A stretch of 64,000 nt of DNA from a virus, in the IMG/VR virus record IMGVR_UViG_3300020054_000866, positions 1-64,000 of that record; one strand, given 5' to 3'. Below, one piece after another: positions 21,582 through 40,618 of the stretch. The notes under the pieces were generated by a model, which saw only the letters and a list, made by a program, of their open reading frames with translations, made no database searches and was not told the DNA's origin. The position numbers and the translations under genes were made by a program. The stretch's first letter is position 1, and each line of letters begins with the position of its first letter.

Positions 21582-21868
21582 TGAGTGAACGTGTCGTAGC
21601 CGTGCTAGACGGCAGCGTCGTCGCGAACGTGGTCGTTGTTGGTGCCGACTGGGTGGCCCCTGCCGATGGGTCGATGGTCGAGTACACGACCGGCTACCCG
21701 GCTGCTATCGGCTGGGAGTACGACGGCACAGGGTTCATCCCACCTCAGCCGTACCCGTCGTGGGTGCTCACCGACTATGTGTGGGAAGCACCTGTCGCTT
21801 TGCCTGATGACGGCCAGTCGTATGTTTGGGATGAGACGACGGTTAGTTGGCAGGTGGTGAGTAACTAA
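21581..21868 (+). CDS. Tail-fibre chaperone-like small protein
   Basis: The true start is the ATG at 21581 that overlaps the previous stop (GTGATGA), giving 95 aa. The C-terminal half PPQPYPSWVLTDYVWEAP followed by PDDGQSYVWDETTVSW is shared with the products at 33893 and 35900. Proteins with this tail are found after fibre genes in many phages and are thought to assist or complete fibres. Role here is from context. Confidence 0.65.
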   Translation: MSERVVAVLDGSVVANVVVVGADWVAPADGSMVEYTTGYPAAIGWEYDGTGFIPPQPYPSWVLTDYVWEAPVALPDDGQSYVWDETTVSWQVVSN

Positions 21869-27250: not shown

Positions 27251-27628
27251 ATGGCTGCACCTAATATTGTAAACGTCGCAACAATCACCGCCAAAACCGC
27301 TCTAGTACGCCTCGCAGACACAAGTGAGAACACGCTCGTTTCTAACTCCGCGTCGTCTGGCAAGGTGTTCAAGATCAACAATATTATTGTTTCCAACGTT
27401 GATGGCACAGACGACGCCACAATTACTGTCGTTGTCTGGGACACCGCCACTGTCGGTTCTACAAACGGCACAAAGATTGCTCACACTATCAATGTTCCCG
27501 CCGATTCGACGCTTGTTCTTATTGATAAGTCATCGGCCATCTATCTCGAGGAGGATAGGTCTATCGGGGTCACCGCCTCGGCTGCTGACGATCTACACGT
27601 CATCTGCTCGTATGAAGAGATCTCGTAA
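27251..27628 (+). CDS. Small fibre-associated beta protein
   Basis: The ATG at 27251 has GGAGG 6 nt upstream and gives 125 aa; an upstream start in the same frame overlaps the previous gene and lacks a site. The protein (VFKINNIIVSNVDGTDD... YEEIS) has the same layout as the products at 20362 and 29848. It overlaps the first propeller protein by one nucleotide. Confidence 0.6.
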   Translation: MAAPNIVNVATITAKTALVRLADTSENTLVSNSASSGKVFKINNIIVSNVDGTDDATITVVVWDTATVGSTNGTKIAHTINVPADSTLVLIDKSSAIYLEEDRSIGVTASAADDLHVICSYEEIS

Positions 27629-29496
27629 TGCCTACCCGTAAGTTCATAGGCATTGATAAAAACCCGGTTGCTTCTGATGCTTCTGGTGTTTGGGTTTTAT
27701 CTGAACATTATGCTGCTGTTCTTGGTAACAGATGGCCAGGAGATGCCGTGTATGCGCTGTTCGCAGGCGGCGAAAGCGCCTCAGGGGAGGAGAACACCAT
27801 TGACTATGTGGAAGTTGTCTCCGCTGGTAATGCCACGGACTTCGGTGACCTAACTCGAACGGCGTACTACCTTGCGGGCCTCAGTTCCACGACTCGTGGA
27901 GTGTTCGGAGGCGGTTACGTTGGCGGAGGCTATTCCAATGTCATCGACTATGTGACCATCGCAACGACTGGGGACGCTTCCGACTTCGGGGATTTGACAG
28001 TCGCTAGGTGGGAACTCGGTGGTGCGTCGAACGAAACCCGTGGCCTGTGGGCCGGTGGTCTAGCGGCTGGCTCTAGGAATAACACAATCGACTACATCAC
28101 GATCGCTACAACTGGGAACGCCACCGACTTCGGTGATCTGACAGAAGCCGCCCAAGCGCTGGCAGGCCTCGCATCTCCGGTCCACGCCATCTTCGTCGGC
28201 GGACGTACAGCCGCATTCAACTATGACACCCGAATCGACCATGTGGCGATCGCCTCCACGGGTGACGCTATCGCATGGGGCGAACTGACTGTCGGACGGT
28301 GGAGACTGGCGGCGGCATCGAACAGCACTCGTGGACTAGCGGCAGGTGGAGTCGGCGCCTCCGGTAACCTAGATGTCATTGACTACATCACGCTGGCCTC
28401 CGCAGGTAACGCCACGGACTTTGGTGACCTGAGTTTTGCCCGTCGGTGGCTTGCTGGTGCGGCATCCTCCACTCGTGCCATCTTCGGTGGAGGTACCGAC
28501 GGTAGCGTAACGAATGTCATTGACTCCGTAGAGATCGACACGCTCGGGAACGCCGTTGACTTCGGTGACTTGACTGTCGCCCGTCAGTCTGTCGCCGCCT
28601 GCTCTAACGGTCACGGTGGACTTACTCCGGAATCGCAAGTTGCGTCAGGACGAGGCATCCTCGCAGGCGGTTACACGCCAAGCGTTGTCAGCACCATCGA
28701 TTACTTCACGATCTCAACGGGTGGTAACGCCCTTGTGTTCGGTGGCCTCACGACAGCCAGAAGGGGTGTCGGGTCGTGTTCTTCTACGACCAGAGGTCTG
28801 TTCGGTGGAGGCTACACGGGAGCGAACTCCAACGTGATCGACTACATCACGATGGCTACCGCAGGCAACGCCACCGACTTCGGTGACCTGACTATCACCC
28901 GGGAGTCGACATTCGGTTGCTCTGATCCGACGAGAGGCATCTTCGCAGGCGGTTACACAACGTCGGAAGTGAACGTCATCGACTATGTGACCATCGCCAC
29001 GACCGGCAACGCAACCGACTTCGCTGACCTGACGGTCGCTCGGCAAACATCAGGATCGCTCGCATCCCCGACGAGGGGCATCTTCGGAGGTGGCTGGACT
29101 GGGGCTAACTCCAACGTCATTGACTACATCACGATTCAGACCATCGGAAACGCCACCGACTTCGGCGATCTCACCGTGTCACGCCATTGGCTTAGCGGGG
29201 TGTCATCAGCGACTCGTGGCGTGTTTAGTGGCGGCAATAGTGGAACCTCAACTATCGACTATGTGACCATCGCCACGACTGGGAACGCAACATCGTTTGG
29301 CAACATGGCTACCGCAAGAGAGGGAAGTGGCGGCGTGTCTAACAGCACGACCGGAGTGTTCTGTGGTGGCCTTAGTACCGCAACCTGTGATGCGATCACT
29401 ATTGCGACCACCGGGAACGCCACGACCTACGGGTCTCTCACACAAGCCCGTTCACGGCTTGATGGTGTATCAGACAGTCACGGAGGACTCCAATGA
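27628..29496 (+). CDS. Adhesin-like protein: two tandem six-repeat propellers
   Basis: After an about 45-aa head, this 622-aa protein consists of 12 repeats of about 46 aa with the core NVIDYVTIATTGN-ATDFGDLTVAR followed by a TRGxFGGGY strand. Repeats 1-6 end with CSNGHGGL (nt about 28608) and repeats 7-12 with VSDSHGGL at the C-terminus. The six-plus-six layout and closing motif suggest two six-bladed beta-propellers of the kelch/RCC1 type, probably glycan- or protein-binding. The repeat family occurs in other phages; the hexad reading is my own count. Stop overlaps the ATG of a truncated remnant. Confidence 0.78.
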   Translation: MPTRKFIGIDKNPVASDASGVWVLSEHYAAVLGNRWPGDAVYALFAGGESASGEENTIDYVEVVSAGNATDFGDLTRTAYYLAGLSSTTRGVFGGGYVGGGYSNVIDYVTIATTGDASDFGDLTVARWELGGASNETRGLWAGGLAAGSRNNTIDYITIATTGNATDFGDLTEAAQALAGLASPVHAIFVGGRTAAFNYDTRIDHVAIASTGDAIAWGELTVGRWRLAAASNSTRGLAAGGVGASGNLDVIDYITLASAGNATDFGDLSFARRWLAGAASSTRAIFGGGTDGSVTNVIDSVEIDTLGNAVDFGDLTVARQSVAACSNGHGGLTPESQVASGRGILAGGYTPSVVSTIDYFTISTGGNALVFGGLTTARRGVGSCSSTTRGLFGGGYTGANSNVIDYITMATAGNATDFGDLTITRESTFGCSDPTRGIFAGGYTTSEVNVIDYVTIATTGNATDFADLTVARQTSGSLASPTRGIFGGGWTGANSNVIDYITIQTIGNATDFGDLTVSRHWLSGVSSATRGVFSGGNSGTSTIDYVTIATTGNATSFGNMATAREGSGGVSNSTTGVFCGGLSTATCDAITIATTGNATTYGSLTQARSRLDGVSDSHGGLQ

Positions 29497-29549
29497 CCGA
29501 ACTAGCACTCACCGCATCGCAGAAATTTATCATTGACATTGGAGACTGA
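29493..29549 (+). pseudogene. Truncated copy of the start of the 39821 gene
   Basis: An 18-codon ORF begins MTELALTASQ, identical to the first ten residues of the gene at 39821, with 28 identical nucleotides (29494-29521 and 39822-39849). It then diverges and stops just before the next MAIDFP cassette. In both places it directly follows a propeller gene. This is a deletion or recombination scar. Confidence 0.85.
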
Positions 29550-29552
29550 GCC

Positions 29553-29843
29553 GTGGCTATTGATTTTCCTAACTCCCCTTCAGTAAACGACACCTACACC
29601 ACCAACGGTAAAACCTACCTATGGGACGGAACCGCGTGGACTGTGTATGGAACATTCACTGTACGCTCCACTACCTCGGACACGGAGCCGACGGGCGTTT
29701 TAGATGGTCACATCTGGTATAGAAGTGATCAATCTCAGACTTTGATAAGATATGACGGTACGTGGATAGAAATCGGTGCGTCCACAGCGGCAAGCGGTGG
29801 TGACACGGGTTTCGCTAACAGTTTTATGACGATGGGAGCGTAA
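29553..29843 (+). CDS. Short fibre head protein with MAIDFPNSP cassette
   Basis: The 96-aa protein has the MAIDFPNSPSVNDTYT...LWDGTAWTVYG head and the GHIWYRSDQSQTLIRYDGTWIEIG cassette, then a short end. The start is GTG with GGAG upstream. It lacks a tip domain. Confidence 0.65.
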   Translation: MAIDFPNSPSVNDTYTTNGKTYLWDGTAWTVYGTFTVRSTTSDTEPTGVLDGHIWYRSDQSQTLIRYDGTWIEIGASTAASGGDTGFANSFMTMGA

Positions 29844-29847
29844 AGAC

Positions 29848-30177
29848 ATGGCGCAGGCTTACAAGGTGCTCGGACAGATCGCACCGTCCGCAACGACAGC
29901 GACGACTATCTACACGGTGCCGTCTGCTACCGAGGCGGTCGTGTCCAGCATCGTCGTCTGTAACCGGTCGTCATCTAGTGTTACATTCCGAATCTCCGTT
30001 AGGCCGAACGGTGCTTCGCTGGCGAATCAGCACTATCTGGTGTATGACGCACCTCTCGTTGGAAGCGACACGCTGATCTTCACCGTCGGCTTGACGTTAG
30101 ATGCGACCGATGTTCTTGAAGCCTACGCCTCGTCCGGGGACTTGACGTTTCAGGCTTACGGGTCGGAGATTTCGTAA
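29848..30177 (+). CDS. Small fibre-associated beta protein
   Basis: The 109-aa protein (YTVPSATEAVVSSIVVCNRSS..., ending FQAYGSEIS) is a beta-rich protein that matches the layout of the 20362 and 27251 products. It may be a virion-associated trimerising or spacer chain. It is separated by 3 nt from the next gene. Confidence 0.6.
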   Translation: MAQAYKVLGQIAPSATTATTIYTVPSATEAVVSSIVVCNRSSSSVTFRISVRPNGASLANQHYLVYDAPLVGSDTLIFTVGLTLDATDVLEAYASSGDLTFQAYGSEIS

Positions 30178-30180
30178 GTC

Positions 30181-31107
30181 ATGGCGATCTACTCTGTCAA
30201 ACAAGGAGGACCGAGTTTCCGCCTTCTTGATGCAACTGTTGGCAACTTTCTGTTGGACTATTTGGTTGTTGCTGGCGGCGGCGCAGGCGGCTACTCATAC
30301 GCCGGTGGTGGAGGTGCGGGTGGCTTGTTGACTAACACATCCGTGGAGCGTTCACTTAGCACTTCGTATCTCGTCACGGTAGGTGCTGGCGGAGCGGCAT
30401 CATCAACGGTGCCGAAACCTCTGACGATGAATGGTTCTAACTCCGTGTTCGATTCCTTCACGTCTGTTGGTGGCGGTGCTGGCGGGCGAGGCGCTCAAAG
30501 CGCACCAGATCGAGATGGCTATGACGGCGGTTCCGGTGGTGGCGGTGGCGGTTGGACCGCTGGCTCTGGCGGGTTAGGAACAGCAGGTCAAGGCAACGAC
30601 GGCGGCGACGGCGACCTCAACCCCGATAAGAAAGGTGGTGGAGGTGGTGGTGCTGGTGCCGCCGGTTCCAACGGAACAGCATCCTCTGGCGGCAACGGCG
30701 GTATCGGGTCGATCTCAACTATCGTCACGACGACTATTGCTTCCAGCGCATCCGTTGGAGAAGTCAGCGGAAGCGATGTCTACTTTGCTGGCGGCGGTGG
30801 CGGCGGTGTCCAAGACATCAGCAACTTCGGTGACGGTGGTCTAGGTGGTGGGGGAGATGGCGGCTCCAACTTGACTGGACCGGGGACAGGAAGCGCAGGT
30901 CAAGTTGGAACTGGTGGCGGTGGCGGCGGCGGTGACCAAACTCATCTCGGCGGCAACGGTGGCTCCGGTGCCGTGATCTTCCGATACCCGTCAACGCTGG
31001 CGATAACTGTTGGCGCTGGGCTGACCTCAACGACGAGCGTTGTCGGATCGGACAAGGTGACGGTGATTACGGCAGGTTCAGACAACGTCAGTTGGGAGGT
31101 TGCCTGA
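30181..31107 (+). CDS. Glycine-rich adhesin-like protein
   Basis: The 308-aa protein has a short head (AIYSVKQGGPSFRLLD) followed directly by the glycine-rich domain (YLVVAGGGAGGYSY to GGSGAVIFRY) and the terminal beta part TVGAGLTSTTSVVGSDKVTV. It is a probable receptor-binding tip; many Gly-Gly-X runs may form polyglycine II helices as in T-even adhesins. The stop overlaps a truncated chaperone-like remnant. Confidence 0.74.
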   Translation: MAIYSVKQGGPSFRLLDATVGNFLLDYLVVAGGGAGGYSYAGGGGAGGLLTNTSVERSLSTSYLVTVGAGGAASSTVPKPLTMNGSNSVFDSFTSVGGGAGGRGAQSAPDRDGYDGGSGGGGGGWTAGSGGLGTAGQGNDGGDGDLNPDKKGGGGGGAGAAGSNGTASSGGNGGIGSISTIVTTTIASSASVGEVSGSDVYFAGGGGGGVQDISNFGDGGLGGGGDGGSNLTGPGTGSAGQVGTGGGGGGGDQTHLGGNGGSGAVIFRYPSTLAITVGAGLTSTTSVVGSDKVTVITAGSDNVSWEVA

Positions 31108-31211
31108 TGGCTCACTACGCCTTCCTTGACGACGACGGGATCGTGACTGGCGTGATTGTCGGTCGTGACGAGAACCTGCTGAACTGGACCCCTGCTACTC
31201 TCGGAGACTGA
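31107..31211 (+). pseudogene. Truncated chaperone-like ORF
   Basis: The 34-codon ORF starts MAHYAFLDDDGIVTGVIVGRDE, matching the start of the 127-aa product at 33893, then diverges and stops immediately before the next MAIDFP cassette. It appears to be the front end of a chaperone-like gene cut off by insertion or recombination. Confidence 0.75.
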
Positions 31212-31214
31212 CCT

Positions 31215-32072
31215 ATGGCGATCGACTTTCCCGATTCCCCCTCTGTTGGCGACCAGTTCGTCGCGTCCGGCAAAACGTATCAATGGGACGGCACCGTCTG
31301 GACCATTTACGGGCCACAAACCAACCCTGACATCTTCAAAGTAGACACCACTAACAACAGGGTTGGTATCAACAGTGCGTCTCCCTCTGTCACTCTAGAT
31401 GTAACAGGAGACGCAGCAGTTTCTGGAGATCTAGATGTTACAGGAGAATTTACTTCTAGAGGTTACCGTTATGTCCAGACGCTGTATTTCACTTCGTCGG
31501 GGTCGTTCACGAAAGCGACGTATCCGTGGCTGAGGGCGATCCGTGTGAAGTGTCAGGGTGCTGGTGCGGGCGGCGCTAACCGGAACGTCGCCTACACTTC
31601 GTCGCCCGGTGGTGGTGGCGGTGCTATGGCGGAATCGTTCATTACCGATATCGCTAGCCTTGGAGCATCAGAAACCATTACGGTCGGTGCTGGTAGTGCT
31701 GGCGTTGCTTCCGGTGTTCAGGGTGATTCGTCCTCTGGTGGAAATTCGTCGTTTGGAGCGCTGGTTATCGGTGTCGGCGGTAGTGGCACTTCAGGGCTTG
31801 CTACTTATGGCGGGGTAGGCGGGTTGTCGTCGGCGTGTACCGGTGATTTTGCGGTAAGTGGAAACGACGGCGGCACTGGAAGCCTTGAGGACGACGGCCA
31901 CGGCGGTAACGGCGGCGGCTCGCATTTCGGTGGCGGCGGCTATGGAGGCCGACGTAACACAACTCCTGGCGCAAACGGAAGGGATTATGGCGGCGGCGGT
32001 GGTGGCGGAACCGAAACCGCCGCCGCTGGTGCTGGTGCTAACGGGATTGTGATCGTGGAGTTGTACGCATGA
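31215..32072 (+). CDS. Fibre protein: MAIDFP head with glycine-rich tip
   Basis: The 285-aa protein joins the MAIDFPDSPSVGDQF head, a shaft-like NRVGINSASPSVTLDVTGD block, and the FTSSGSFTKATYPWLRAIRV domain leading into a glycine-rich part that ends ANGIVIVELYA. The FTSSG...P(W/A)G entry is a recognised type of glycine-rich tip. It overlaps the next gene by 4 nt. Confidence 0.74.
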   Translation: MAIDFPDSPSVGDQFVASGKTYQWDGTVWTIYGPQTNPDIFKVDTTNNRVGINSASPSVTLDVTGDAAVSGDLDVTGEFTSRGYRYVQTLYFTSSGSFTKATYPWLRAIRVKCQGAGAGGANRNVAYTSSPGGGGGAMAESFITDIASLGASETITVGAGSAGVASGVQGDSSSGGNSSFGALVIGVGGSGTSGLATYGGVGGLSSACTGDFAVSGNDGGTGSLEDDGHGGNGGGSHFGGGGYGGRRNTTPGANGRDYGGGGGGGTETAAAGAGANGIVIVELYA

Positions 32073-32257
32073 AATACGCACTAATCAACGCTGACGGTTT
32101 GGTTGTGAACGCTATCGTGTGGGACGGTCAAACCGACTACACCGCACCCGATGGGCTGGCCGTTGTTGCTATTCCTGATGGTGTTGGCGCTGGTCCCGGC
32201 TGGACCTATGACGGCGCCAACTGGATCGCACCGCCGCCTGAAGAGCTCGAAGAATAG
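32069..32257 (+). CDS. Small fibre accessory protein
   Basis: The 62-aa protein begins KYALINADGLVVNAIVWDG and ends WIAPPPEELEE, resembling the front half of fibre chaperone-like proteins but lacking the PYPSW half. It is the last gene before a promoter-containing spacer. Confidence 0.6.
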   Translation: MKYALINADGLVVNAIVWDGQTDYTAPDGLAVVAIPDGVGAGPGWTYDGANWIAPPPEELEE

Positions 32258-32304
32258 CCAATTATTCTTCAACAGCTCGTAAAATCGCGGCTGCTCGTGT
32301 AGTG

Positions 32305-32310
32305 TATAAT
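32305..32310 (+). promoter_or_regulatory. Internal promoter of the fibre array
   Basis: A perfect TATAAT lies in the 86-nt spacer 32258-32343, the longest gap inside the array. Transcription would start near 32317, with GGAGG (32331-32335) before the ATG at 32344. It may allow separate expression of the distal adhesins. Confidence 0.5.
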
Positions 32311-32343
32311 TTGGTGAGATCTTGTGCGTTGGAGGCCGTCTAA

Positions 32344-33612
32344 ATGGCAATTGATTTTCCAAACTCCCCAACCACCGGTGACACGTACACTGCTGGCGGT
32401 AGGACGTGGCAGTGGGACGGTACCGTCTGGGCCGCATACGGCAACTATCCCGACCCCACCGTCCTGAAGATTGATACCGGTACCAACCGTGTCGGTATCA
32501 ACAACACGTCCCCCACGACCGCGTTAGACGTAACCGGTGACCTGACGGTCTCTGGCAAGGTCAATGCCACCGCCCCCACCTCTACCAAGACAGCAAGTTA
32601 CACACTCGCTGCCGGTGATGAGAACACTCGCATCGTAATGAATAACGCTGGGGCGACGACCATTACTGTTGATGATGGTGTGTTTGCGGCTGGTGACACG
32701 GTGTGGATTCACAACATTGGTGCTGGTACGACGACGGTTACGGCTGGTACTGCGACGGTTGATACTGCTGGTTCGTTGGACGTTGGACAGTGGGAGGGCG
32801 GAAGTCTTTACTTCACATCTGCGTCCTCTGCAATCTTTTTTCGTGGTGGCGGAGCAGGCGTAGCATACGGTGCCGCTACTGGCGGCACATCCTCCACGAT
32901 CACGGTTGATGGCGATTCGTACACTTTGTTGGAGTTCACTTCGTCCAGCACGTTGACCGTGACTAAGGCTGGCGTGTTTGACGTTCTTGTTGTTGGCGGT
33001 GGCGGTGGCGGCGGTACTGCTGGCTCCCTCATCTGTGGTGCTGGTGCTGCTGGTGGCTACCGCCAGTTCGACAAGGTATATTTCGACACGAACCAGACGG
33101 TCGTTGTCGGTGCTGGCGATTCGGTGAACGGCTACCGAGGCACCGGTTCACGATGCGGTCAACCGTTCGTCGGTGGAGGCGGTAGCACTAACCAATACCT
33201 GCAAGGTCGAAACGGTGCCTCCGGTGGTGGCGGTGGATACTCCACGGCTGTCGGCGGCAAGGGCGACGACGCAAGCGGCAATAACGGCGGCGGCGGTGCG
33301 TCTAGTGCTGGTGGCGGCGGCGGCGGTGCTGGGGCAGTTGGTGCTAACGCTACGTCGGGCGCAGGCGGCAACGGTGGCGACGGACTGGACGCATCGACGT
33401 TTCGCGGTGAGTCCGCAGGAACTACCTATTACGCAGGTGGAGGCGGCGGTGAAGGCGGCACGACCCGTGGCCTCGGCGGTCTTGGCGGTGGTGGAAACGG
33501 CAAAGACCCGGGCAACGCATCTACAGCAGGAGCCACCAACACAGGTGGTGGCGGTGGTGGCGACGGCTCCTCTGGTGGATCCGGCATTGTCCTAGTGAGG
33601 TTCAAGAACTAA
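32344..33612 (+). CDS. Fibre protein: MAIDFP head, beta shaft and glycine-rich tip
   Basis: The 422-aa protein has the MAIDFPNSPTTGDTYT head, the NRVGINNTSPTTALDVTGD block, a YTLAAGDENTRIVMNNAG beta module and a C-terminal glycine-rich domain (FDVLVVGGGGGGG to GGSGIVLVRF). It is the longest glycine-rich fibre of the array and the first gene behind the internal promoter. Likely receptor-binding. Confidence 0.76.
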   Translation: MAIDFPNSPTTGDTYTAGGRTWQWDGTVWAAYGNYPDPTVLKIDTGTNRVGINNTSPTTALDVTGDLTVSGKVNATAPTSTKTASYTLAAGDENTRIVMNNAGATTITVDDGVFAAGDTVWIHNIGAGTTTVTAGTATVDTAGSLDVGQWEGGSLYFTSASSAIFFRGGGAGVAYGAATGGTSSTITVDGDSYTLLEFTSSSTLTVTKAGVFDVLVVGGGGGGGTAGSLICGAGAAGGYRQFDKVYFDTNQTVVVGAGDSVNGYRGTGSRCGQPFVGGGGSTNQYLQGRNGASGGGGGYSTAVGGKGDDASGNNGGGGASSAGGGGGGAGAVGANATSGAGGNGGDGLDASTFRGESAGTTYYAGGGGGEGGTTRGLGGLGGGGNGKDPGNASTAGATNTGGGGGGDGSSGGSGIVLVRFKN

Positions 33613-33875
33613 TGGCACATTTCGCACGCATTGACAACAACACGGTCATTGAGGTCATTGTCATTTCCGACGACAACTGCCCTGATCCTGCCCCCAACAA
33701 CGAATCAGCAGGACAGACGTTCATCGCTGACGTTCTCGGACTCGCAGGCGAATGGAAGCAAACCTCATACAACGGGAACTTCCGTGGCACCTACGCCGGA
33801 ATCGGCTACACCTACGATCCTGCTATTGATGAGTTTGTGCCGCCCCCTGTAACTGAAGAACCGACCCCCGAGTAA
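33612..33875 (+). CDS. Small fibre accessory protein
   Basis: The 87-aa protein begins AHFARIDNNTVIEVIVISDD and has YNGNFRGTYAGIGYTYDP near the end, a pattern frequent in small proteins after fibre genes. It overlaps the previous stop by one nucleotide. It shares the AGIGYTYD strand with the 33893 product. Confidence 0.62.
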   Translation: MAHFARIDNNTVIEVIVISDDNCPDPAPNNESAGQTFIADVLGLAGEWKQTSYNGNFRGTYAGIGYTYDPAIDEFVPPPVTEEPTPE

Positions 33876-33879
33876 GAGG

Positions 33880-33885
33880 TATAAT
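33880..33885 (+). promoter_or_regulatory. -10 element giving a leaderless transcript
   Basis: TATAAT ends 7 nt before the ATG at 33893 and no Shine-Dalgarno is present, so a transcript from here would begin at the start codon. Confidence 0.5.
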
Positions 33886-33892
33886 CACACCT

Positions 33893-34276
33893 ATGGCACA
33901 TTACGCATTTCTTGACAACAACAACGTCGTCACTGAGGTCATCGTCGGACGTGATGAAGATGAAGTCGTTGACGGCGTTACGGACTGGGAGGCTTACTAC
34001 GGTGAGTTCCGGGGCCAGACCTGTAAGCGCACCTCGTACAACACGCAGGGCGGACAGCACACTGGTGACGGCACCCCGTACCGTAAGAACTACGCCGGTA
34101 TCGGATACACGTACGATGCCGACCGTGACGCCTTCATTCCGCCCCAGCCGTACGCTTCGTGGGTCCTGAACGAGGACACCTGCCTGTGGGACGCCCCCAC
34201 CCCGATGCCTGATGACGGACAGGAGTACACGTGGAACGAAGACACGACCTCATGGGAAGTAGTTGAGGCTGAGTAA
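33893..34276 (+). CDS. Tail-fibre chaperone-like protein
   Basis: The 127-aa protein is the full-length form of this family: MAHYAFLDNNNVVTEVIVG, DWEAYYGEFRGQTC, RKNYAGIGYTYD, then PPQPYASWVLNEDTCLW and PDDGQEYTWNEDT. Paralogues are at 21581 (back half), 31107 (front fragment) and 35900 (full length). Preceded by a probable leaderless promoter. Role in fibre assembly is inferred from its regular position after tip genes. Confidence 0.68.
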   Translation: MAHYAFLDNNNVVTEVIVGRDEDEVVDGVTDWEAYYGEFRGQTCKRTSYNTQGGQHTGDGTPYRKNYAGIGYTYDADRDAFIPPQPYASWVLNEDTCLWDAPTPMPDDGQEYTWNEDTTSWEVVEAE

Positions 34277-35082
34277 TGGCGATCAATTTCCCCGACTCTC
34301 CTTCTAACGGCGACACCGTCACCGTCGGTGACAAGACGTGGACGTGGAACGGATCGACGTGGGATGTTGTCGTATCGACCCCGATCTCTAATCAGATCGT
34401 TGATGCGGATGGCGATACCCGCGTCCACGTAGAAGAGTCCCCCGACGAAGATTACTTACGTTTCGATACTGCTGGTACCGAGCGTATGACGATCAACCCT
34501 TCAGGCAATGTCGCTATGACCGGCGATCTTACGGTTACGGGTACTATTGCTGGTGGGTCTACTACCTTTCCCACTACGTTGGATTCTGGAACGATGCCCG
34601 CAATCGAGGCGCTTCAGGCGAAGGTTGGTGTCAATAGTTCTGCTGTTGCGACTTCGCATGATTACATTCTGAATCAGCCGACCGCTTTCACGTTGAAGGC
34701 TCCGTTGGAGTTGTGGACCATTTCGGCTACAGCGGCCACAGGAACCGTGAACGTCGATCTGAAGTCGTCAGGCGCACATTATTTCACGGCGGATGCTACG
34801 GCGAACTGGACATACAATTTCCGTGGCGATGCGTCTACCAGTCTTGATTCTGTGTTGGCTGTCGGTGAATCGGTCACCGCTGTTCACGCAGTGACCAACG
34901 GCGCGACAGCTTACTATCCGACGGCGTTTCAGGTTGACGGTTCGGCGGTGACACCCAAGTGGTCGGGTGGTTCTGCACCCACTTCGGGTAATGCTAGTTC
35001 GGTTGATGCTTACCTGTTTACTGTTGTCAAGACTGCTAGCGCTACGTTTACGGTGTTGGCTCAGCAGGTTCAGTTTGCCTGA
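34276..35082 (+). CDS. Fibre protein with MAINFPDSP head
   Basis: The 268-aa protein carries MAINFPDSPSNGDTV...WTWNGSTWDV, the DADGDTRVHVEESPDEDYL...GTERMTINPSG block, a short shaft, and a C-terminal beta domain (VKTASATFTVLAQQVQFA) typical of phage tip modules that start with a YNFRGD-like segment. It overlaps both neighbours by one nucleotide. Confidence 0.7.
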   Translation: MAINFPDSPSNGDTVTVGDKTWTWNGSTWDVVVSTPISNQIVDADGDTRVHVEESPDEDYLRFDTAGTERMTINPSGNVAMTGDLTVTGTIAGGSTTFPTTLDSGTMPAIEALQAKVGVNSSAVATSHDYILNQPTAFTLKAPLELWTISATAATGTVNVDLKSSGAHYFTADATANWTYNFRGDASTSLDSVLAVGESVTAVHAVTNGATAYYPTAFQVDGSAVTPKWSGGSAPTSGNASSVDAYLFTVVKTASATFTVLAQQVQFA

Positions 35083-35897
35083 TGCCTATTTTAGGTGCGG
35101 TTTCTCAGCCTGCTGGGGCGATCAGGTATGGCCGTCCGCCGCTAGAGGTTGAATATCTGGTTGTCGCTGGCGGCGGGGGTGGCGGAGGAGGCGACGATGC
35201 CGACGGCGGAGGCGGTGGTGGAGGCGCAGGTGGCTTCCTGACCAGTACCGTGACTTTGACGGCTGGTTCTAATTACACTGTAACAGTTGGCGGTGCTGGC
35301 GGTGGATCGCCATCGCTCAGCGTTGGCTCTAGTGGCGGAAACTCAGTATTCGATTCGGCCACAGCAATTGGCGGTGGTCGTGCCGCTAGCCGTGGCGGTG
35401 GCGGTCAAAGCGGCGGTTCCGGCGGTGGATGTTTCCGAAACGCCAATCGGGGATTGGGAACGGCTGGTCAAGGAAACGCTGGCGCAAGTAGCACGACTTC
35501 GTGGGCTGGCGGTGGCGGTGGTGGTGCCGGTGCAGGTGGTAGCAACATGAACGGTGGTGCTGGTCTTGCGTTTTATGGCACCTATTACGCTGGCGGTGGT
35601 GGTGGCGGCAGAAACGGTGCTACCGCTACTGGTTCCGGTGGTGCTGGTGGTGGCGGGAACGGTGCTGCAAACGGTTCTGCTGGTACGCACGGTCTTGGCG
35701 GTGGTGGCGGCGGTGGTCAAGGAGGATGGAATACCAACTCCTTGGGTGCCCGTGGTGGTTCTGGTGTTGTTATTCTGCGCTATCCAGACGTATATACCTT
35801 GACAGTTGCGGCAGGTCATACTGCTTCTACCACCACAAGCGGATCAACCAAGATCACTACTATTACTGCCGGTTCTGGCTCTGTTTCTTGGAGTTGA
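35082..35897 (+). CDS. Glycine-rich adhesin-like protein
   Basis: The 271-aa protein has a minimal head (PILGAVSQPAGAIRYGRPP) and then the glycine-rich domain (YLVVAGGGGGGGG to GGSGVVILRY) with the terminal TVAAGHTASTTTSGSTKITT beta part. The domain is nearly the whole protein, making it a good candidate for a stand-alone tip like gp38. The chaperone-like gene at 35900 follows by 2 nt. Confidence 0.74.
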   Translation: MPILGAVSQPAGAIRYGRPPLEVEYLVVAGGGGGGGGDDADGGGGGGGAGGFLTSTVTLTAGSNYTVTVGGAGGGSPSLSVGSSGGNSVFDSATAIGGGRAASRGGGGQSGGSGGGCFRNANRGLGTAGQGNAGASSTTSWAGGGGGGAGAGGSNMNGGAGLAFYGTYYAGGGGGGRNGATATGSGGAGGGGNGAANGSAGTHGLGGGGGGGQGGWNTNSLGARGGSGVVILRYPDVYTLTVAAGHTASTTTSGSTKITTITAGSGSVSWS

Positions 35898-35899
35898 CG

Positions 35900-36286
35900 A
35901 TGTGGCATTATGCTTTACTTGACGAAAACAATGTTGTGACCGATATCATCACTGGTCAAAACCCCAATGTTGTCGTGGACGGTGTTGATAACTGGGAATC
36001 GTATTACGGTGAGTTTCACGGCTGTAGGGCTGTGGGGTCTGATTGCGACATGTTTGGTGGTCAACACTTGGATGGAGGTGTTCCATTCCGCAAAAACCAT
36101 GCGTCTATCGGCGGCACCTATGATGAAAGCCGCGATGCTTTTATTCCGTCACAGCCATACCCGTCATGGGTGCTAGACGAAGATACCTGCTTGTGGAACG
36201 CTCCGGCCCCTAAACCAAATGACGGCAATGCGTATGGCTGGGACGAGGACACTGTTAGTTGGGTTCAGATCGACGAAGGTGATTGA
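35900..36286 (+). CDS. Tail-fibre chaperone-like protein
   Basis: The start is the ATG at 35900, giving 128 aa; a longer frame reads back into the adhesin gene and is unlikely. It has MWHYALLDENNVVTDIITG, NWESYYGEFHGCRA, and PSQPYPSWVLDEDTCLW with a DEDTVSW end, so it is a full-length paralogue of the 33893 product. The mid region differs and could match the different preceding tip. Confidence 0.68.
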   Translation: MWHYALLDENNVVTDIITGQNPNVVVDGVDNWESYYGEFHGCRAVGSDCDMFGGQHLDGGVPFRKNHASIGGTYDESRDAFIPSQPYPSWVLDEDTCLWNAPAPKPNDGNAYGWDEDTVSWVQIDEGD

Positions 36287-36297
36287 TAATGTGTTAC

Positions 36298-36303
36298 TAT
36301 AGT
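36298..36303 (+). promoter_or_regulatory. -10 element before the last MAIDFP gene
   Basis: TATAGT lies in a 36-nt spacer, with GGAGGG 14 nt downstream acting as ribosome site for the ATG at 36323. The -35 is not clear. Confidence 0.4.
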
Positions 36304-36322
36304 TCTGACACTGGAGGGTGTA

Positions 36323-37103: not shown

Positions 37104-39824
37104 ATGAAGTTGTCTACCTTCTCCGGGTTTATTAGCGCAGTAATCGCCGGTACCCGTGCGTTGTTTTTTGGCGGTTATACGGGGTCTGCTCGTAGCGATG
37201 TAATCGACTATGTCAACATTGAGACTCTGGGTAATGCCACCGATTTTGGTGATCTAACCGTTGCTCGTAACGGTGGTGCGGCTGGGGCTTCTTCAACTCG
37301 CGCTTTATTTGCTGGCGGTTACTCCACCTCCAGAGAAAACACTATTGACTATGTAACTATCGCCACGCTGGGTAATGCAACAGACTTCGGTAATCTGACA
37401 CAGAACGCCTCCGGTCAGGCGGGTGCGTCTAACGAAACACGTTTCGTAATAGGCGGCGCAAACATTACGAGTGCGTACTACGCCTTTAGCAATCGCATCG
37501 AGTATGTGACTATTGCTTCCACGGGTAATGCTATAAACGTAGGAGGCTTGACAGTAACTAGGGCTGAGGCTGGTGGAGTTGAGTCACCTGTTCACGGTTT
37601 GTTTATGGGCGGTCAGTTCGTGAACTCAGCAGCGACCGTATTCAGCACATATAACACTATTGACTACGTTACATTTAGTTCTTTAGGTAACGCTCTGGAT
37701 TTTGGTGATCTAACACAAGCACGTTTCGTTGGCGGTCCCGCATCTAACTCTGTCAGAGGTCTGTACGCTGGCGGTGTAAGCCGAGTTGGTACGACTAGTG
37801 CTACCGTCCTAAGAGACACCATTGACTACTTGACCCTTGCGGCTAGAGGCAACTCCGCAGATTTCGGTAATCTTAGTGTCGCTTCTAGCAGTAACGCTGG
37901 GGCGGCTTCTTCATCGAGGGCACTATTCACCCTCGGTTATCCCAATTCTTACGGCAGTAACACCATTGAATATGTTGAGATTGCCACTACCGGCAACACT
38001 GTTGATTTTGGTGATCTCACCATTGCTCGTAATGCTGACGGCACCTCTGGCGGTCACGGTGGGCTGATCTTAGTTCTGCCTACTGCTGACGGTACTCGTG
38101 CGCTGTTCGGTGGCGGTCTCGTTGATGGCGGTTCTGTCAGAACGCAGATCGACACGGTACTGATCGCTTCGACTGGGAACGCCACCGACTTCGGTGACCT
38201 GACGCAGGCTCGAACTTATCTCAACGGGTTGTCTTCCTCTACAAGAGGCGTGTTTACCGGCGGCAATATCGGAAGCAGCACCCGTGTCAACACGATGGAT
38301 TATGTGACCATCGCTGAGGGTGGGACCGCCCTTGACTTCGGTGACCTGACGTTGGTTCACGACGATCATGGAACAGCATCTAATGAAACCCGAGGTCTGA
38401 ACTTCGGTGGTCAAACTCCAACTGTTCTGACTAACGTGATTGACTACATCACGATTGCTACGACTGGTAATGCTACGGACTTCGGTGACCTAAGTTGGGG
38501 TGCGAGCCGTAACCCGATGGCGGTCCAGTCTCCCATCCACGGCATCGTTCACGGCGGTTCCATCGACCAAGACGGCATCTACTACGTTGCGTTTGCGTCG
38601 ACCGGCAACACGGTGCAGTGGGGAACCCTGTATCAGACAAACTATTCGGTGAGCAACGGTGTGTCTAATGCCACCCGAGGCGTGTTCGCTGGTGGCGGCA
38701 CCGTAGCGAATGTGATCCAAGCCATTACGCTGGCATCTGCCGGAAACTCGATAGACTTTGGTGACCTGACGGTGGCAAGAGCAAAGGCGGCTGGTGCCGC
38801 TTCTCCGACCCGTGGCCTGTTTGCTTCGGGTGAGGGCTACTACAACGTGATCGACTACATCGACATCGCCACATTCGGTAATGTTGCCGACTTCGGTGAT
38901 CTCACGGAGACGATCTTGAAGCCGGGTGCCTGCTCTGACGGTCACGGTGGGCTTGGAGCGTCACCGTTGGAGTCAATCTCCAACATCGGCGTGTTCGACA
39001 ACGGGGACTACATCGAATACCTGAACATCGCTTCGACCGGTAACTCGCTGAACTTCGGCAAGTTGAGTACCGCAAGGTCACGGATGGATGCTGTCGGTTC
39101 CACTACTCGGGCCGTGTTCGGTCCCGGCTTGGGGGACGATGTTACCATTGACTATCTGACGTTCACGACCGGTGGCGACGCTACTGACTTCGGTGATACA
39201 ACGTCCGCTCGTTCAGCAATGGGCGGTTGTGGGAACTCTACCCGAGGACTGTTCGGCGGTGGCATCCCTAACTCGGACGTCATCGACTATGTGACCATCG
39301 CCACGACCGGCAACGCAACCGACTTCGGTGATCTGACGGTGAGCCGTGGTGATACGTCAGCAACATCCAACTCCACCCGAGGCTTGTTCTGCGGAGGTGC
39401 CACGACTCCCGGCCCGACAGTCCGAAACCAGATCGACTATGTGACCATCGCAACCACCGGAAACGCTACCGACTTTGGTGATCTCACGGTGGCTCGTCGT
39501 GATCTCGGTGCTTCTGCGTCCACTACTAGGGCTGTCATCGTCGGCGGTCGTGACGCTACGGCTTCCGGTTGGTACAACACGATGGATTACGTCACCATCG
39601 CTACGACAGGAAACGCTACGGACTTCGGTGACCTGACGGTTGCCCGAGGGAAATGTAAGTCTATGTCGAACACGACGAGAGGTATCTGTACCCCCGGCGA
39701 GGGTTACAACGTCATCGACTACTGGACGATCGCCACCACCGGGAACGCCACCGACTTTGGTGACGCATCGACCGCCTCCTATCACGGTGGCGCAACATCA
39801 AACTGTCATGGAGGACTGTCGTGA
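37104..39824 (+). CDS. Adhesin-like protein: three tandem six-repeat propellers
   Basis: The 906-aa protein has a short head and 18 repeats of about 46 aa with the IDYVTIATTGNATDFGDL core. An HGGL motif closes repeat 6 (GGHGGL, nt about 38050), repeat 12 (SDGHGGL, about 38938) and repeat 18 (SNCHGGL, at the end), giving three blocks of exactly six. It is paralogous to the 27628 product, which has two such blocks. This strongly suggests propeller number varies by whole units. Probable receptor or glycan binder at the fibre tip. Confidence 0.78.
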   Translation: MKLSTFSGFISAVIAGTRALFFGGYTGSARSDVIDYVNIETLGNATDFGDLTVARNGGAAGASSTRALFAGGYSTSRENTIDYVTIATLGNATDFGNLTQNASGQAGASNETRFVIGGANITSAYYAFSNRIEYVTIASTGNAINVGGLTVTRAEAGGVESPVHGLFMGGQFVNSAATVFSTYNTIDYVTFSSLGNALDFGDLTQARFVGGPASNSVRGLYAGGVSRVGTTSATVLRDTIDYLTLAARGNSADFGNLSVASSSNAGAASSSRALFTLGYPNSYGSNTIEYVEIATTGNTVDFGDLTIARNADGTSGGHGGLILVLPTADGTRALFGGGLVDGGSVRTQIDTVLIASTGNATDFGDLTQARTYLNGLSSSTRGVFTGGNIGSSTRVNTMDYVTIAEGGTALDFGDLTLVHDDHGTASNETRGLNFGGQTPTVLTNVIDYITIATTGNATDFGDLSWGASRNPMAVQSPIHGIVHGGSIDQDGIYYVAFASTGNTVQWGTLYQTNYSVSNGVSNATRGVFAGGGTVANVIQAITLASAGNSIDFGDLTVARAKAAGAASPTRGLFASGEGYYNVIDYIDIATFGNVADFGDLTETILKPGACSDGHGGLGASPLESISNIGVFDNGDYIEYLNIASTGNSLNFGKLSTARSRMDAVGSTTRAVFGPGLGDDVTIDYLTFTTGGDATDFGDTTSARSAMGGCGNSTRGLFGGGIPNSDVIDYVTIATTGNATDFGDLTVSRGDTSATSNSTRGLFCGGATTPGPTVRNQIDYVTIATTGNATDFGDLTVARRDLGASASTTRAVIVGGRDATASGWYNTMDYVTIATTGNATDFGDLTVARGKCKSMSNTTRGICTPGEGYNVIDYWTIATTGNATDFGDASTASYHGGATSNCHGGLS

Positions 39825-40618
39825 CCGAACTAGCACTCACCGCATCGCAACTACCGGAACGGTACGAGCAGATGATCGACAAGGTGACCGAACTGCTCCC
39901 AAGGATCGACGCATCGAACGAGTCGTTCTACAAGTCGGACTCACAACTCAAGACCGTCTCGCTGAACGTCACCGACCTGACCGATGTTGGTGCGGCGAAG
40001 CATATCCTCGCCCGTATCGAACGGAAGCGGGAAGCGTTGAAGGAGTCCGAGTTGGGGTTGCGCCGTAAGCGGATCGAACTCGCTCAGAAACAAGACGAAC
40101 TGGAATCAGCATCCGGGTACGCCGCCGAACTGTTAGAGATCGACATTCTGGAACTGTCGTCACAGATCGAATCGACGCAGAACTACCAGCGGGGTGCCGT
40201 CCGTGAGGTGACGTTCCTCGTTCACCAGTACGAAGCAATCTGCGACAAGTTAGGTGTCGAAGTCATCACCGAAGAAATGTACGAGGCGAACGAGTCGAAG
40301 GCTCAAGTGATGCGGGCGTTCTCGCAGGCGCTCGCCGCCGCCCGCTCACGGCAGGGCTTGATCGACGAAGGCAACTTCATCTTCTTCCAAGACCTCGGCA
40401 TCAACGGTGCCGCCGCCCAACGGGAACTCATCACCTACCTCGAAATGGAACAGCAGATGCTCAACGAGGGCAAGGTGCCGACGTTCGAGGTTCAGTACGG
40501 CTGGCTGGATGCGGTCAGCGACAAGTTCGCCCCACAAGTCGCCTTGTACGCCGAGCATCGTGGACTCATCCCGCAAGTCGAAGCCGCCCTCGCACAACCG
40601 AAGGAATTAACAGTATGA
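39821..40618 (+). CDS. Coiled-coil protein following the propeller adhesin
   Basis: The 265-aa protein starts with GTG overlapping the previous stop. It is mostly helical with a long coiled-coil (about residues 60-145, IERKREALKESELGLRRKRI) and a C-terminal alpha region with QYGWLDAVSDKFAPQ. The first ten residues recur as the remnant at 29493 after the other propeller gene, which implies a paired function, perhaps a chaperone or trimerisation partner for propeller adhesins. Family not recognised. Confidence 0.65.
   Translation: MTELALTASQLPERYEQMIDKVTELLPRIDASNESFYKSDSQLKTVSLNVTDLTDVGAAKHILARIERKREALKESELGLRRKRIELAQKQDELESASGYAAELLEIDILELSSQIESTQNYQRGAVREVTFLVHQYEAICDKLGVEVITEEMYEANESKAQVMRAFSQALAAARSRQGLIDEGNFIFFQDLGINGAAAQRELITYLEMEQQMLNEGKVPTFEVQYGWLDAVSDKFAPQVALYAEHRGLIPQVEAALAQPKELTV

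Follow-up and report, generated by a model that had tools for sequence, protein, structure and literature searches.

The open reading frame (ORF) of 34 codons at positions 31107-31211 of the window, by which we mean the whole stretch of 64,000 nucleotides that was analysed, was found to consist of the first 20 and the last 14 codons of a single gene, the middle of which was deleted between short direct repeats. With a probability of about 0.93, the ORF is what remains of a tail-fibre-chaperone-like gene of approximately 128 codons, from which 282 bp were removed in frame between two copies of GACGAGAAC. The intact gene is present at the syntenic position in a related contig (L089), and the comparison of the two demonstrates the exact joint, the preserved reading frame, and the retention of both native ends. 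Together, the intact relative and the exact joint show how a receptor-binding cassette of an uncultured phage lost a presumed helper gene. The ORF itself is an ordinary deletion remnant, though one that is unusually easy to read. The unnamed chaperone-like family and its array of cassettes are of most interest, and a testable function is proposed here for protein families that previously had none.

The ORF is located directly downstream of a Gly-rich fibre/adhesin-like gene at 30181-31107 (Gly_rich_2; PF21722, E = 3e-16; phrog_2295), and its start overlaps the stop codon of that gene in the sequence TGATG. The product of the upstream gene is presumed to be the client of the lost chaperone-like protein. 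The next gene, at 31215-32072, has a MAIDFP head and a Gly-rich C-terminus (PF21722, E = 8.5e-11; phrog_863, E = 5.3e-31). The first-pass annotation had placed the end of the ORF just ahead of this gene, and 3 bases were found to separate the end of the ORF from the ATG at 31215. These two genes, the ORF with its parts, and the paralogues described below are all on the plus strand. The ORF had also been matched to the start of the product of the gene at 33893, and both products do match phrog_7759. Residues 1-27 of the 34-residue product, MAHYAFLDDDGIVTGVIVGRDENLLNWTPATLGD, align with positions 1-27 of the 125 positions of phrog_7759 (E = 1.8e-5), and a match over the whole length of this family is absent for the ORF. 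The 33893 product aligns with positions 1-122 (E = 4.8e-42), which is nearly the whole length.

Viral contigs were scanned for the encoded end WTPATLGD-stop, and four stretches were found. Two of these (L082 and L088) are from the same phage as the window, and the other two are L089 and L090. A complete copy of the gene, for which the first-pass annotation had proposed looking in relatives, is present in L089 (14069-14455, 128 codons), at the corresponding position in the gene order. L090 contains only the 3' part of the intact gene, from about residue 24, with the rest cut off by the end of the contig, and it provides a second copy of the L089-type 3' end. In the L089 gene, GACGAGAAC is found at offset 60 and, 282 bp further on and in the same frame, again at offset 342; the ORF of the window has one copy and is 282 bp shorter. 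When the L089 gene is joined at the repeat, 101 of the 105 bases are identical to those of the ORF and the 4 that differ are all in the 5' part; the ORF therefore comprises both ends of the gene with the middle lost. The retained 5' end (31107-31166, codons 1-20) aligns with 14069-14128 of L089, and 65 of 69 bases are identical over 31107-31175. The joint at 31167-31175 is the sole remaining copy of GACGAGAAC, which encodes Asp-Glu-Asn (codons 21-23). The retained 3' end (31176-31211, LLNWTPATLGD-stop) is identical to those of L089 and L090 and closes with GGAGACTGA (31203-31211), the last two codons plus the stop (Gly-Asp-stop). The joint removes 94 of the 128 codons, and of the intact protein only the initial fifth and the final tenth remain in the 34-residue product. 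The earlier description of the ORF as a truncated chaperone-like gene is right in that the ORF is a defective remnant, but the 3' end is also kept, so that the lesion is an internal deletion. A comparison with the 33893 paralogue only would hide this, because the C-terminus of that protein differs (VVEAE).

The upstream gene order, consisting of a homologue of the gene at 29848 (12825 in L089), the Gly-rich gene, and the partner gene, is common to the window and L089. L089, a 14.7-kb fragment, is not the direct ancestor of the window locus, because the two Gly-rich genes are identical at 151 of 330 columns of the protein alignment and the next gene of L089 is unlike that of the window.

The 9-bp GACGAGAAC is the longest direct repeat within the L089 gene, and 10 of 74,691 breakpoint pairs lie inside a repeat of 9 bases or more. 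Both sites could be placed in 111 family genes, and in 2 of these, one being L089, they carry an exact repeat of at least 9 bases. The outcome resembles that of replication slippage between short direct repeats, in which one copy and the intervening DNA are likewise lost and one copy is kept, and we infer the mechanism for the present case from the product alone. Classic phage examples of such deletions exist. PMC4134008 presents a slippage model for deletions between direct repeats. During phage replication, slipped-strand mispairing or single-strand annealing at the two repeats would have excised the 94 codons. The deletion left the frame intact and spared both the TGATG coupling and the native ribosome site for the gene that follows. 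Ribosomes could still enter at the TGATG overlap and exit at the GGAG of the native end, which would keep the following gene expressed. The loss may have been tolerated for this reason and through the other family copies that remain in the array. Large in-gene deletions have been described for gp37 of phage PP01 in PMC6027323, likewise within a host-attachment gene cluster. The PP01 deletions are in the distal tail-fibre gene itself and arose in laboratory evolution, whereas the deletion in the window is in the presumed helper gene. No published tail-fibre deletions at short repeats were found in the literature.

A profile of the intact family (A1) matched five places in the record to which the window belongs, at 33893, 35900, 21701, 33612, and 31107. 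The intact paralogues are the 127-residue product of 33893-34276 (phrog_7759 and A1) and the 128-residue product of 35900-36286 (A1, E = 7.1e-48). A shorter paralogue of 87 residues is encoded at 33612-33875 (phrog_7759, E = 8.6e-26), and a further paralogue of 103 residues at 21557-21868 matches in its C-terminal part only (profile positions 65-122). The small relative at 32069-32257, which follows the Gly-rich gene at 31215, has 62 residues and belongs to phrog_14370. Both phrog_7759 and phrog_14370, the sequence families of these window genes, are families without an assigned function. The intact family has no relevant match in Pfam or NCBIfam. Pfam includes a model for Tfa, and no match to Tfa was obtained for P0001, P0002, the L089 protein, or the 73 A1 members at E values up to 1. 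A search of solved structures with the A1 profile gave no match at E values up to 10, and no sequence similarity of the family to either Mu Tfa or Pam3 gp25 was detected. No literature was found that ties phrog_7759 or Gly_rich_2 to chaperones. The gene context is similar to that of Tfa, the gene for which is directly 3' of the fibre gene. There were 158 distinct contexts of family members, 9 of them without a usable upstream frame, and the open frame upstream was Gly-rich (at least 18% Gly) in 122 of the remaining 149, compared with 228 of 1372 background frames from the same loci.

The AlphaFold2 model of the intact protein (73 rows, pLDDT 94.8) consists of an N-terminal hairpin, one helix, and then strands. 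The sole helix of this 128-residue model is formed by residues 32-40, and the remainder is strands and loops. In a comparison with 112 chains from the PDB using VIA-align, the model matched 7ypx_a (Z = 4.3, rmsd 2.7, 55 residues), and no other chain reached a Z of 2 or more. The 62-residue relative was also modelled (11 rows, pLDDT 89.5); its top two Foldseek matches were 5yvq_B (E = 0.22, probability 0.95) and 7ypx_a (E = 0.83, probability 0.54), with Z values of 3.6 and 6.1, respectively. By the yardstick of the tool itself, such Z values are low, and the Foldseek E values ranged from 0.22 to 1.9 overall. The chain 7ypx_a has 162 residues, the same length as that given for the Pam3 chaperone gp25 in PMC9608196. 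Entry 5YVQ is the complex of the Mu tail fibre with its chaperone, and we take chain B to be the chaperone because of its match, as the entry listing names the complex only. On the basis of these models, the N-terminal beta fold of the family would weakly resemble the N-domains of Mu Tfa (5YVQ) and Pam3 gp25 (7YPX). Pam3 gp25 also has a C-terminal alpha-helical trimerisation domain, as described in PMC9608196; this domain is absent from the 128-residue model, in which beta-hairpins are predicted to follow the N-domain instead.

A Tfa-like chaperone role for the intact family is likely but unproven. It is suggested by the predicted folds, since two solved tail-fibre chaperones head the list of matches, and by the mostly Gly-rich upstream gene, since Pam3 gp25 is reported in PMC9608196 to fold a fibre with a glycine-rich domain. 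The intact family would thus probably help to fold the Gly-rich fibre encoded just upstream. A more extended proposal is rather doubtful at this stage, namely, that phrog_7759 and phrog_14370 form an unnamed branch of Tfa-like tail-fibre chaperones with beta-hairpins rather than a helical trimerisation domain, that they accompany Gly-rich adhesins in tandem cassette arrays, and that conserved Asp-Glu codons located close to each end of the gene could serve as a built-in short repeat for the loss of the chaperone in one in-frame step that leaves the next adhesin unsilenced.

The same joint was found in three records: the window, L082, and L088. The contigs L082 and L088 differ from the record of the window by 17 mismatches in 55,779 aligned bases and by 1 in 74,256, respectively, and the three are near-clonal contigs of the same phage. 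The identity of the short ORF among them therefore tells us nothing about selection or about the age of the remnant. The A1 profile gave 189 hits in 164 sequences, and the hits of fewer than 80 residues at E below 1 were those in the window, L082, and L088, plus a match of 48 residues at the start of contig L050. The fusion signature VIVGxDE-x4-W was present in 92 stretches, and of the 80 that were examined, 71 were family-like and the sole deleted one was L082. By the profile and these 80 of the 92 stretches, the deleted version was not found outside of the three near-identical contigs; each of the two locus sets comprises the best 80 of 600 candidates, and rarer, distant short forms could be missed. 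When short MAHYA-type ORFs preceding a MAIDFP head were sought by pattern, one stretch was obtained, L082, of the same phage. A megablast search with window positions 20000-44000 against 50,697 phage records gave no match, and tblastn with the 34-residue product against phages gave 9 records (E = 0.1 to 2), none covering 80%. One other match, in the Microbacteriaceae MAG contig L206, was set aside as a likely chimeric contig. In that contig (5001-5686), residues 1-22 are matched, the family gene stops after GRDEE, and foreign-looking sequence follows. Members of the family are also found in MAG contigs labelled as Microbacteriaceae and Nanopelagicales (L165, L170, L171, and L175), among many other groups.

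These results bear on whether the remnant does anything. The 34-residue product could be a functional mini-protein, or its translation could act as a leader supplying the next head with ribosomes, and the in-frame structure, the coupling at the start, the ribosome site at the end, and the identical sequence in three records are all consistent with such a role. This explanation is nevertheless improbable, given that the three contigs are near-clonal, that the other phages examined contain no short form, and that what is left of the model is the first hairpin and one strand. The in-frame state requires no selection, because the 8- and 9-base repeats of the intact gene are already in phase. The 34-residue product retains the first hairpin together with a single strand of the last hairpin, and it is most likely non-functional. 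It is also barely conceivable that the joint was created by an assembler that collapsed the repeat. The records are metagenome contigs, but the same joint appears in three of them, and the k-mers used in assembly are usually far longer than a 9-bp repeat.

A different origin had been put forward in the first-pass annotation, in which GGAGACTGA was regarded as a preferred recombination joint upstream of MAIDFP genes. On this view, the chaperone-like gene would have been cut short by the insertion of a new head. The nonamer does close both scars, as had been noticed, and the window holds exactly two copies of it, at 29541 and 31203. This count is not beyond chance, because at least 2 copies were present in 15 of 100 shuffles. 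Seven head-like genes were compared, at 21868, 26800, 29553, 31215, 32344, 34276, and 36323; six fit the pattern [MV]A[IVL]xFPx[ST]P, and the gene at 21868, which starts with MPLSFP, was taken as the seventh. The nonamer precedes two of the seven. The earlier assignment of a ribosome site for the next head fared better: the distance from GGAG to the start is 8 bases at both 31215 and 29553, and the GGAG within GGAGACTGA is likely the Shine-Dalgarno site of the next gene, at normal spacing.

GGAGACTGA was found before a MAIDFP-type start in seven stretches: three with intact genes, two with copies of the scars of this phage, and two in another frame. In the intact group, the partner genes of L083, L084, and L087 (124-125 codons) end with TGGACCCCGGTCGGAGACTGAC and are followed directly by the MAIDFP gene. 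The partner genes of L089 and L090 end with CTCGGAGACTGACCTATGGCGATC, and the layout of the last two codons and the stop is the same in all five. In L085 and L086, the nonamer is read in another frame (GAG ACT GAA TAA) within different sequence. The protein ends with Gly-Asp in 9 of the 159 unique family sequences. Because intact relatives carry the same end, GGAGACTGA is a native gene end, with a second role as ribosome site for the gene that follows, and not a scar of recombination. The break is in the 9-bp repeat, which ends 27 bases before the nonamer. The proposed joint is therefore contradicted, as GGAGACTGA terminates the intact genes of L083, L084, L087, and L089 and the break lies upstream of it. 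An end shared by two remnants can be no more than the preserved end of a gene, with an additional function as a ribosome site.

Some evidence for exchange in this region does exist. The window and L089 have 57 identical bases that start with the repeat and continue up to codon 3 of the following gene, beyond which they encode different genes (MAIDFP and MAITFPTTLDTLTDP, respectively). Similarly, L020 and L027 (the contigs also designated L083 and L084) share a block that spans the 3' end of the partner gene and the head, with 46-50 of 50 bases identical per segment, and the flanks are less similar. However, among 141 contexts, the four pairs with a block of at least 88% identity across the stop all extend well past it, and none of the blocks ends at the joint. 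Swapping near the start of the head is possible, but a preference for that site was not shown, and recombination at GGAGACTGA is very improbable as the origin of the ORF, for which deletion between the copies of GACGAGAAC remains the preferred explanation. In L304-L319, heads of the MASNFPSSLDSFTNP type are combined with Gly-rich C-termini (GIVIVELYA) and a 62-residue partner close to those of the window, which suggests head swapping between cassettes.

The two scars differ in kind. The one at 31107 is the internal deletion of one gene, whereas the one at 29493-29549 opens with the start of another gene, that at 39821. The segment 29469-29521 resembles 39797-39849 (86.8% over 53 bases), and the match includes 28 identical bases at the start of the 39821 gene (VTELALTASQ...). 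The stretch 29469-29549 consists of the end of a kelch-like gene and the first 10 codons of a 39821-like gene, joined to KFIIDIGD-stop. As for the source of this ending, the pattern FIIDIGD-stop was found in L082, L088, and L164, and the match in L164 is not surrounded by such a gene. The whole 10-kb cassette array lies between the two copies of the 53-bp direct repeat (29469-29521 and 39797-39849), and this arrangement hints that the array was placed by duplication or insertion. Within the array, at 29553-36322, MAIDFP/Gly-rich genes stand in tandem, and after several of them comes a gene of phrog_7759 or phrog_14370, the start and stop codons overlapping. The genes at 27628-29496 and 37104-39824 are paralogues made of repeated units that we label kelch-like, with up to 97% identity over 64 bases.
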